Below, piece by piece: positions 11,848-15,422 of a stretch of DNA of 64,000 nt; the stretch's first letter is position 1, and each line of letters opens with the position of its first letter. The DNA comes from Haladaptatus sp. R4 (GTDB taxonomy: Archaea; Halobacteriota; Halobacteria; Halobacteriales; Haladaptataceae), in NCBI RefSeq assembly GCF_001625445.1, contig NZ_LWHG01000028.1:186001-250000 (forward strand), in the 5' to 3' direction. Under the pieces are notes generated by a model, which saw only the letters and a program-made list of their open reading frames with translations, did no database searches and was not told the origin of the DNA. A program made the position numbers and the translations under genes.

Positions 11848-11960
11848 GCTCCCATCGTTTTCTATCGTAACGCCGTCTCACAGCCGATTTCCGGGCGATG
11901 TTGCCGGAAAGGCGTTCGTTCTCCGACATCGTTTTGGTCGTTGCCTCTGTGACGAAGGAC

Positions 11961-13138
11961 ATGGAACAGGACCTCTCGGCACTGGATTCCGCGCTCGATA
12001 CGATGGACGTCGATGGCTTCCTCATCGACGCCGACTCGACGGATTCCGACCAACTGTATCTCTCGGGTTTCGACGCGCCGGACCCGTTCACGACGCTGTA
12101 CGCGGACGGCGTTCACCTCCTCGTCTCCAGTTTGGAGTACGGGCGGGCCAAAAAGGAGAGCAACGCGGAAAGCGTCTCCCGCATGTCCGACTACGACTAC
12201 TTCTCGAAGGTCGCGGAGTACGGTTCCGAGGAGGCGGAGTACCACGTTCTCGCCGAATTCCTCGCCGACGAGGGCGTCGAATCGGTCGCGGTACCCAGTC
12301 GGTTCCCGGTCGGCATCGCGGACGGCCTGCGCGAACACGGCGTGACGGTGACGCCCGACGAAACCGCGGTCGTCGAGGGAATCCGTTCGACGAAGACCGA
12401 CGACGAGGTCGAACACATCCGCGTCGCACAGAAGGCCAACGAGGCGTCCATGCACGCGGCCGAGGACCTGATCGCCGCGGCGACGGTCGAGGACGGCGTG
12501 CTCCACTACGAGGGCGAACCGCTGACCAGCGAGCGCGTGAAGGAGGAGATAGAGGTCACGCTGCTGCGCCACGGGGCCGCGCTGGACGAGACCATCGTGG
12601 CGTGTGGCTCCGCGGCGCCGACCCGCACAACCGTGGGAGCGGACCGCTCGCCGCCGACGAGGCCATCATCATCGACATCTTCCCGAAGGACAAGTCCTCG
12701 AAGTATCACGCCGACATGACCCGGACGTTCGTCAATGGCGAGCCTTCGGCGGAGATTCGGGAGTACTACGAACTCACCCACGAGGCGTTCGACGCCGCCT
12801 TCGACGCCCTCGAACCCGGCGCGACGGGCGAGGAGGTTCACGCGGCCGTCTGCGACGTGTACGAGGACGCGGGCTACGACACGCTCCGAAGCAACCCGAA
12901 CGCCGAGACGGGATTCATCCACAGTACGGGACACGGTGTCGGCCTCGACGTGCACGAACTCCCGAAGGTCAGCCCTAGCGGCGGCGAACTGAAACCCGGC
13001 CACATCGTCACCATCGAACCCGGACTCTACGACCCGGCGGTCGGCGGCGTCCGCATCGAGGACATCGCCGTCGTCACCGAGGACGGCTACGAGAACCTGA
13101 CCGACTACCCGATTCAACTCGTCGTGGACGACGAGTAG
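11961..13138 (+). CDS. M24 (Xaa-Pro) peptidase (frameshifted)
   Basis: The aminopeptidase P/prolidase-type protein cleaves N-terminal residues before proline. The N-terminal creatinase-like half starts at the ATG at 11961 (M-E-Q-D-L-S-A-L-D). Near 12617 a missing base moves the frame between V-A-C-G and D-P-H-N-R-G. The catalytic pita-bread half follows with its metal ligands: the two Asp in I-I-D-I-F-P...H-A-D-M-T-R, His in S-T-G-H-G-V-G-L-D-V-H-E, and Glu in T-I-E-P-G-L-Y and G-V-R-I-E-D. About 392 residues in all, a normal length. All five ligands are present. Confidence 0.88.
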
Positions 13139-13237: not shown

Positions 13238-14469
13238 ATGGCCGACGAATTTCGTTCCTTCGAGGGGCTTCGGCGAGCGCTCGCCGAGACCACGTTCGAC
13301 ACCCCACCGGCAATCGTCTGCAACGCACATGTAACCGGTTTGAGCGTCGCCCGCGCGCTCGCCGCACACGACGTTCCCGTCATCGCCATCGACCGAAACG
13401 GGAAGGGCGTCGCACCGTACTCCGACACCGTGGACTTCGCCGGGCAGGTGACCTACCCGCTCGACGATTCGGACGGTTTCCGCGAGGACGTGGAAGCATT
13501 CGCCGCCGAACTGGGTCACGAACCCGTTGCGTTCCCCTGCATGGACGAGTGGGTCCACGCCTTCGCCGGAACCGAACCCGAGGGCGTTCGATTGCCGTTC
13601 GCCGGGCGGGAGACCATCGACGCCGTGCTCGACAAGGAATCCCTGTACGCGAAGGCCGAGCAGTTGGGCGTCCCGTACCCCGAAACGTACCGCCTCTCCG
13701 AGACGAGTACCGACGACGCGGCCGACGCCCTTGGCTTCCCGCTGGTCGTCAAACCGGCGCTCAAACGCGAGTTCGAGGAGGCCGTCGGCACCAACGTCAT
13801 CGAAGTCGCGACCGCGAGGAACTGGCCGACGTGGCCGCGATGGCCGAGGACGCCGGGATCAACGTCATGGCACAGGAGAAGGTGGACATCGCCGTCGGGA
13901 AGGACTGCTCGCTCGCCTCCTACGTTCCCGAATCGGGTTCCCCAGTTACCTTCGTCGGCAACGCGCGGGTTCGCTACCCGCAGGCGTTCGGCACGTCGTG
14001 TCTCGTTCGCGAGGCCGACCACCCCAAAATCGAGGAGCGCGCGCTGACGGTGTTGGAGGAGACGGGCTACCACGGCATCAGCGAATCCGAGTTCGTCTAC
14101 GACCGGAACCGGGAGGAGTACGTCCTCCTCGACATCAACACCCGCCCGTGGAAGTGGATCTCGCTTCCCGTTCAGGCCGGTGCGGACCTTCCGGGAGCCG
14201 CCTACGCCGAAGCCACTGGGAAGGAATTCGAATTCGACGGCACGCACGACGCCACGTGGGTCTACCTCGCCGATTACCTGAAACTGCTGGCAAGCGATTC
14301 CGGTTTCTCGGACGTTCTCTCGGACAACCAGTGGGAGTCGTTGCTCTCCGGTCGGTTCGAACGGGAGCGAGATTTGACCACCGGCGTGTATCGGCCGAGC
14401 GACGTGGGGCCGGTGCGTCGTCTGATGAAAACCGAGTTCGGTGGCACCGAGTACTACTGTTCCTGCTAG
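13238..14469 (+). CDS. ATP-grasp carboxylate-amine ligase (frameshifted)
   Basis: The approximately 410-residue protein has an N-terminal pre-ATP-grasp domain (I-V-C-N-A-H-V-T-G-L-S-V-A-R-A-L) and a central ATP-grasp fold (F-P-L-V-V-K-P-A-L-K; later Y-V-L-L-D-I-N-T-R-P-W-K-W, the Mg/ATP-binding strand). A base is missing near 13808, between I-E-V-A and D-R-E-E-L-A-D-V. Related proteins join a carboxylate to an amine at the cost of ATP; the substrate here is unknown. D-aspartate-ligase-like proteins and haloarchaeal homologues share the layout. It starts 99 bases after the M24 peptidase gene on the same strand. Confidence 0.8.
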
Positions 14470-14910
14470 CGCAATTTTTGGATCTGGTTTTTTCGCAATT
14501 TTGGCGTTCACAGCCGTTGGCTGGCGCGTTTGCGGTCGATTGGCGTGCCACGGCTAAGTGGTGTTTTTTCGAGCGACCAGCGGCAGTGAGATACTGAACC
14601 ATACTGATTTGAACTGAATCGTACTGCTCTGGACTGGTGGCTGAAGCGTTATTTTCTCGTCCGGCGTCGAACGTTCTCGTTCGTTACGCAGAGCGGTGTT
14701 TGGTGAGGTTATCAGTGCAGTTTCTGGAAGGTAGACCGCCTCGAAAGCTCCCGCTGGTCGCTCGTCCCTCGCGCGGGCGCACTGGCGTGCGCCACCGTCA
14801 GAGCTCTGCTCTGACGAGCCATTCGCTCGCTCCTTCTCACTCACGAAGACATCGTGCGCCGTGCGGTTGGCCCGTATCGGCCCGCCTGTCCAACCGGGTG
14901 GCGCGCGCTG

Positions 14911-14950
14911 GCGGGACGGGTCGGCCGAACTGCTGGCCGACCCGTCCCGC
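14911..14950. other. Perfect 16-bp inverted repeat, 8-nt loop
   Basis: The arms 14911-14926 (GCGGGACGGGTCGGCC) and 14935-14950 are perfect reverse complements around the loop GAACTGCT. At this GC content the RNA hairpin would be extremely stable. It is not followed by a T-run on either strand, so it is not a simple terminator. Confidence 0.85.
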
Positions 14951-15036
14951 TGACAGCGTGCGAGGGATGACGGAGGGAGCGACAGCGACCGGAGGAATCG
15001 GCTGGGGAGGGTGTGGCTGTCGCGGTGCGGTCGGGG

Positions 15037-15170
15037 TGGGACTGAAAGGGGCCGGCCGTTCGCGCTCGCTTGTTGCTGTGCAGGCCCTATCCGCGGCGGG
15101 TGTTGCGGAGAGCGCGGATATCCTGCACAGCAACCGCGAGCGGACGGGGGCTTTCGGGGTCGTCGTCCCA
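15037..15170 (+). ncRNA. Candidate structured RNA (134-nt long hairpin)
   Basis: Five helices nest in order: TGGGAC (15037-15042) with GTCCCA (15165-15170); GAAAG (15044-15048) with CTTTC (15151-15155); CGCTCGC (15063-15069) with GCGAGCG (15136-15142); GTTGCTGTGCAGG (15072-15084) with CCTGCACAGCAAC (15122-15134); ATCCGCG (15089-15095) with CGCGGAT (15113-15119). That is 38 base pairs in one rod. The 16-bp sequence CGGACGGGGGCTTTCG of its 3' side recurs at 15213-15228. Whether it is transcribed, and in which direction, is unknown. It does not match SRP RNA or RNase P RNA features I know. Confidence 0.45.
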
Positions 15171-15422
15171 ACGGCTGCAATCACAAAGCAACGAAATCAA
15201 CGTCGTAGCGGACGGACGGGGGCTTTCGAGGTCTGCTTCTCAGTTACTGCGACCGTAAAACCAGCAGATACGTCTTGCCGTACTCCAATCGGGAACTCAC
15301 AATCGAACTACTCTACAAACTTCCATCGTTCTCCCCGTCGCTGTCGTATGAGATGACGGTGAAGTTGGCCGGGTCCCGCCTACATTTGCCCCGACGTTCC
15401 GACTACCACGTACCGAATCACA

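Follow-up and report, generated by a model that had tools for sequence, protein, structure and literature searches.

The window analysed here is a stretch of 64,000 nucleotides from the genome of Haladaptatus sp. R4. It contains a hairpin-rich block, described in an earlier note at positions 14718-15251, which is located between an ATP-grasp-like gene and a luciferase-like monooxygenase gene. The ATP-grasp-like assignment of the upstream gene (13238-14469) is based on a weak Pfam match just below the threshold. This gene is split over two frames, as is the peptidase-like gene upstream of it (11898-13138), which suggests frameshifts, either by assembly indels or in pseudogenes. In agreement with the earlier description, the block itself holds no plausible reading frame: its two overlapping long ORFs show no Pfam match. 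The following parts were distinguished:

14738-14765, minus strand: left end, an inverted copy of the tail or right-end motif (CCTCGAAAGC.CCCGCTGGTCGCTCG), forming a 15-nt inverted repeat with 15217-15231.
14766-14956, no strand assigned: head and centre module with the hairpins 14797-14815 and 14911-14950 (16 bp, perfect), found as separate recurring modules in the own genome.
14957-15035, plus strand: G-rich arm module (GCGTGCGAGGGATGA...GGAATCGGCTGGGGAGGGTGTGG...), recurring by itself as well as in front of rods, both in the own genome and in relatives.
15036-15163, plus strand: rod, the covarying core of about 125 nt, matched by the covariance model R1.
15164-15231, plus strand: tail repeat, consisting of a linker and a second copy of the 3' arm of the rod (GTAGCGGACGGACGGGGGCTTTC, 15205-15227), a direct repeat in the block.

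Most of the structural features noticed before were found again. The perfect 16-bp inverted repeat (14911-14926/14935-14950) is present, and so is the perfect 8-bp hairpin at 14797-14815, as read from the sequence. The multi-helix rod at 15037-15170 folds with -73.8 kcal/mol (z -3.45, none of 200 shuffled sequences as good), and folding of the whole block resulted in a z of -6.8 (none of 100 shuffles as good). The piece CGGACGGGGGCTTTCG, reported to occur twice, lies within a 52-nt direct repeat, the copies of which are 71% identical and 72 nt apart. The ends are indeed related in inverted orientation (CCTCGAAAGCTCCCG at 14739-14753, CGGGGGCTTTCGAGG at 15217-15231), over 15 nt at 93% identity instead of the approximately 40 bases proposed. 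Read as its reverse complement, the left end resembles the GTAGCGAGCGGGCGGGGGCTTTCGAGG tail unit found elsewhere.

A blastn search with window positions 14700-15270 as query gave 108 matches in the own genome, showing that the block is multi-copy. The matches cover separate pieces of the query (approximately 59-94, 93-159, 153-209, 258-332, 335-460 and 430-551), and these pieces vary in order and orientation across the genome. The block is therefore a mosaic of separately recurring modules. The G-rich arm module (14957-15035) and the rod (15036-15163) are the commonest pieces. In Haladaptatus the G-rich arm usually stands ahead of the rod, and its reverse complement is often found across a centre, forming a large palindrome. 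Block matches were detected in 44 of the 59 genomes of relatives.

For the rod, the covariance model R1 was built from 26 rods, including the window copy. R1 matches the window rod (G000:C28:201036-201163, G000 being the own genome) with 125.8 bits and an E-value of 1.7e-27. It identifies about 40 rods in the own genome and about 80 rods above 80 bits in one Halorussus genome (G014). Among 292 genomes of the class, 169 have R1 matches at E<=1e-3, the weaker of which are less certain, and approximately 15 genera of five families have matches at an E-value of about 1e-16 or better. In a phylum-wide sample, all genomes with matches belong to the order of the window itself. Among the carriers are Haladaptatus, Halorussus, Haloarcula, Halomicroarcula and Halonotius as well as plasmids of Halobaculum and Natrinema. 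One genome of the genus Halorussus (G009) was matched neither with the block nor with the rod model, whereas most of the other searched Halorussus genomes have many; this absence is useful for finding a gene linked to rods. The searched phage records and viral contigs contain no rod or block matches. No Rfam family is matched by the rod or the block at the gathering threshold, and a permissive threshold gave weak chance matches only. In the open-access literature, searched also with literal motif strings, no description of the element was found, although absence there is not proof. The rod family is a set of previously unannotated non-coding intergenic repeats of salt-loving archaea.

The rod has a length of about 125 nt and contains 40 base pairs. 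Its foot is GTGGGACTG/CTTTCGAGG, its outer stem pairs GAAAG (15044-15048) with CTTTC (15151-15155), and its internal loops are the conserved GGGG/GGGGG and CC.CTAT/ATAT.CC. Sequence conservation in the unpaired regions concerns the GGGACTGAAAGGGG foot, the facing GGGGG as well as the internal loop CC.CTAT / T. Compensatory changes are present among the rods. In the alignment A1 of 26 rods, which was made without a structure model and is the cleaner witness, they occur in 19 of the 40 predicted pairs. In an alignment of 115 rods, which was fitted to the model, 98.1% of the pair cells are standard pairs, compared to 83.6% after shuffling, and both partners are changed in 32 of the 40 pairs; the observed values were reached by none of 500 shuffles. 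Pairing falls to 34-44% when the partner is slid by 1-3 columns. Double changes were also found in 33 of the 40 pairs in the alignment A2. The refutation proposed in the earlier note, which included a single genomic copy and a lack of compensatory changes, therefore fails. As the covariation exceeds both the shuffled and the slid controls, the rod is a conserved structured nucleic acid. The shape of the core is kept while the letters change, and therefore the folded strand itself must matter.

On the plus strand of the window, G.U outnumbers A.C by 94 to 26 (p 3e-10), and thus one defined strand, the plus strand, is the one that folds. As G.T exceeds A.C in stability in DNA as well, the asymmetry is no proof of RNA. 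G.U pairs are rare in rods (2%). Watson-Crick pairing is therefore closer to perfection than is typical of RNAs, and this would be compatible, too, with a correction of the arms at the DNA level or with single-stranded DNA (ssDNA).

The copies within one genome are diverged. The G014 rods have a mean identity of 0.77, with identities above 95% in no more than 4 of 1770 pairs. Nevertheless, 99.3% of their pair cells are paired, compared to 86% expected for independent columns, and the loop columns are near invariant. The rods of the own genome have a mean identity of 75%, with none above 95%, and 97.0% of their pair cells are paired. Copies that have diverged yet remain paired, with fixed loops, show that each copy is maintained. 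Old, diverged copies which still fold cannot simply be dead insertions. Since one-sided intermediates are few, a correction of imperfect palindromes from arm to arm probably contributes to the match of the arms; it accounts neither for the fixed loops nor for the strand asymmetry.

The location of the element was followed at orthologous spacers. Nine relatives have the same flanking gene pair as the window. Sites without the block exist, as the spacer of 953 bp in the window corresponds to spacers of 156 and 166 bp in two of them; in the rest, the spacer is mostly filled by other members of the repeat family. In a first spacer, compared across 13 Halorussus genomes, G014 carries a rod, G017 an inverted rod and G011 a decayed rod, and six species have none. 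In a second Halorussus spacer, a rod is present in G014 and a 62-nt mini-rod in G015, and four others have none. The mini-rod (L343:2724-2794) keeps the foot and the outer stem, and the apical part is missing. Some longer Halorussus spacers have extra genes in place of the rod. Two G014 rods located about 1 Mb apart have 198 nt in common at 97% identity, with unrelated flanks; the similarity of this near-identical pair starts 3 nt ahead of the rod and stops where the first tail GGGGGCTTTC ends. The presence, inversion, decay and absence at spacers together with this distant pair indicate that the element disperses. When filled and empty sites were compared, the divergence and the many repeats of the flanks obscured any junction or target duplication. 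A comparison of G003 with G004 at orthologous loci shows an apical hairpin swapped as a unit.

In Halorussus, 27-nt mini-hairpin repeats with a consensus near CGGTGACACAATCCACCGGGAATCGCC stand ahead of many rods, and many rods are followed by repeats of about 54 nt which hold a copy of their own 3' arm. Such tails were found on 24 of 56 rods, and they agree better with the rod they belong to than with a shuffled rod (225 compared to 216.4, sd 1.5). The window copy is built alike, with GCGGACGGGGGCTTTC at the end of the rod and GCGGACGGACGGGGGCTTTC repeated in the tail. In the own genome, tails follow 9 of 30 rods, some of them not matching. Tandem 27-nt repeats (CGGTGACACAATCCACCG...) directly abut many G014 rods on the 5' side (L139-L178), in one to five locus-specific copies. 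Two further kinds of variants were observed. Long rods of about 183-190 nt (L024, L029, L167 and others), present in Haladaptatus and Halorussus, have an extra double hairpin of about 55 nt in the apical loop. Four divergent rod-like elements (L087:1674-1790, L092:1359-1472, L108:1637-1749 and L045:1582-1704) have only the foot and the outer stem in common, and three of them are inverted beside a normal rod.

All 58 rods considered in G014 are intergenic according to a simple codon-based gene caller. In spacers between tandem genes of four Halorussus genomes, the rod is oriented in sense to both neighbours in 33 cases and in antisense in 11 (p 0.001). The sense bias is weaker in further Halorussus and MAG loci (13:6), and rods of the own genome show no orientation bias (5:8). 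At one annotated plasmid locus of Halorussus, the rod lies in sense between two co-directional genes. A role in the 5'-UTR, e.g., as a riboswitch, is unlikely and was dropped, because in one spacer set the conserved CGAAACGTATTCCGG before the downstream gene falls beyond the element, and because the own genome shows no orientation bias. Replication-strand clustering of rods was not seen on the G014 chromosome. An evenly spaced chromosome-organising site was rejected because the gaps between G014 rods are irregular. A region of 368 kb (G014:C1:1521937-1890145) is without a rod above about 80 bits, at a mean gap of 42 kb. The Y1 transposase (PF01797) was not found in G000, G011 and G012, all of which carry rods, and the two PF01797 genes of G014 are kilobases away from any rod. 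A Y1/RAYT transposase is thus not needed for the presence of rods. Three TnpB genes (PF07282) were found in G000, none of them near a rod.

The block is probably a mosaic member of a family of intergenic repeats in Halobacteria, which lacks a transposase and disperses. The working unit of the family would be the rod of about 125 nt, a folded single strand of fixed polarity. The best reading would be a BIME/SMR-like palindromic repeat in which the folded single strand is the working form, more likely as RNA than as ssDNA. The element may be copied by a trans-acting factor or by way of recombination between single DNA strands, and this copying would sometimes duplicate the 3' arm into tails. Once in place, a copy may stay folded through use of its hairpin by the host or by the element. 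This use would most probably take place at the RNA level, within read-through transcripts from adjacent genes, similar to what has been proposed for REP/BIME. The earlier suggestion of a miniature element or RNA cluster therefore holds in part: the block is a dispersed repeat of variable presence with a strongly covarying single-strand core, and it is no MITE with simple 40-nt terminal repeats.

The rods might instead form a multi-copy structured ncRNA family proper, in which each rod is a functional RNA (a processing or stability element or a trans-acting RNA) and dispersal is incidental. This is conceivable, if rather doubtful. It agrees with the covariation and invariant loops, the upkeep of each copy, the excess of G.U over A.C on one strand and the sense bias in Halorussus, and without an Rfam match such a family could have been missed. 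However, presence and absence turn over rapidly at orthologous spacers, Haladaptatus has no sense bias and no conserved neighbour genes were noticed. It is unlikely that the rod is an ssDNA hairpin which a nuclease or transposase (IS200/605-like or REP-like) recognises and which persists solely as an active mobile site. A hairpin of fixed polarity, intergenic dispersal, the distant near-identical pair ending at GGGGGCTTTC and tails repeating the right-end motif are consistent with such a site, but the carriers G000, G011 and G012 lack a Y1 transposase, those of G014 and the TnpB genes of G000 do not adjoin rods, no strand clustering is seen along the G014 chromosome and young copies are few.

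Passive mosaic palindromes without function, with a symmetry arising from template switching (quasi-palindrome correction) and a spread by recombination, would explain the near-perfect Watson-Crick pairing with few one-sided intermediates (582 double changes compared to 182 non-Watson-Crick cells), the tandem duplications seen locally in the tails and in the 27-nt repeats upstream, and the exchange of apical hairpins as units. Such an origin seems quite improbable, as diverged copies show hardly any variation in the unpaired columns (GGGACTGAAAGGGG foot, CC.CTAT, GGGGG), the internal loops are not corrected to pairs and one strand is favoured. An ordinary MITE of a known haloarchaeal IS is most improbable despite the short inverted ends (GTGGGACTGAAAGGGG / GGGGGCTTTCGAGG) and the dispersed intergenic location without an ORF, since a non-exhaustive search found no parent element, no target duplication was seen in the diverged, repeat-rich flanks, the mosaic composition is variable and diverged copies maintain their structure.

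The reading as a dispersing, folded repeat family can be extended, tentatively, to class-wide, undescribed structured RNA (or ssDNA) elements in Halobacteria, with tens to about 100 per genome, each copy being selected to stay folded and spread by a machinery which also copies the 3' arm into tandem tails. A strongly covarying structure with tens of copies per genome in at least 15 genera, absent from Rfam, is a large unannotated part of haloarchaeal genomes. The rod family offers a handle on the movement of transposase-free haloarchaeal repeats (SMRs) and on the possible existence of BIME-like folded elements that act on mRNA in archaea. The RNA-seq data already available for haloarchaea could be re-read against the rod model at once.

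Several known systems are similar to the rods. SMR-A/B of Haloquadratum walsbyi are transposase-free repeats of about 110 bp with up to 54 copies, and their inverted ends are unrelated to known transposons (PMC3119063). As "switch repeats" they occur in either orientation at one site, and their mobiliser is enigmatic; identities between the copies commonly exceed 95%, and the targets of SMR-A are PATE/IS605 palindromes (PMC3119063). The rods are likewise haloarchaeal, about 125 nt long and present in many copies, with inverted block ends and without a transposase. Unlike SMRs, they are diverged (75-77% identity) instead of near-identical, covary and are located in ordinary gene spacers, a comparison made by description. 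PATEs are derived from IS605-type ends and have no terminal inverted repeats (PMC3119063). They are haloarchaeal, non-coding, palindromic and dispersed like the rods, for which, however, no IS605 association was found. Structured RNA in many scattered copies is also characteristic of HEARO and the omega-RNA of IscB and TnpB elements, but no TnpB gene adjoins any rod of the own genome and Rfam gave no match.

REP/BIME elements are high-copy intergenic mosaic palindromes, which occur in both orientations with the hairpin as working form; REPs have 20-65 nt, a GTAG/CGTC foot and a RAYT transposase (PMC2817692, PMC3733652, PMC6006769). The rods are high-copy, intergenic and mosaic and are found in both orientations as well. 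In contrast to REPs, the rod is a multi-helix structure of about 125 nt with 40 pairs, fixed internal loops and the foot GTGGGACTG/CTTTCGAGG, and GTAG is found only ahead of tail copies of the rod 3' arm. No Y1 (RAYT) gene is present in the carriers G000, G011 and G012, and the two of G014 are not adjacent to rods. By analogy, the element would work like BIMEs, and it resembles SMRs, yet it departs from the defining features of REPs (size, foot and RAYT) and of SMRs (near-identity). There is an open chance that it represents a new class of archaeal structured RNA.
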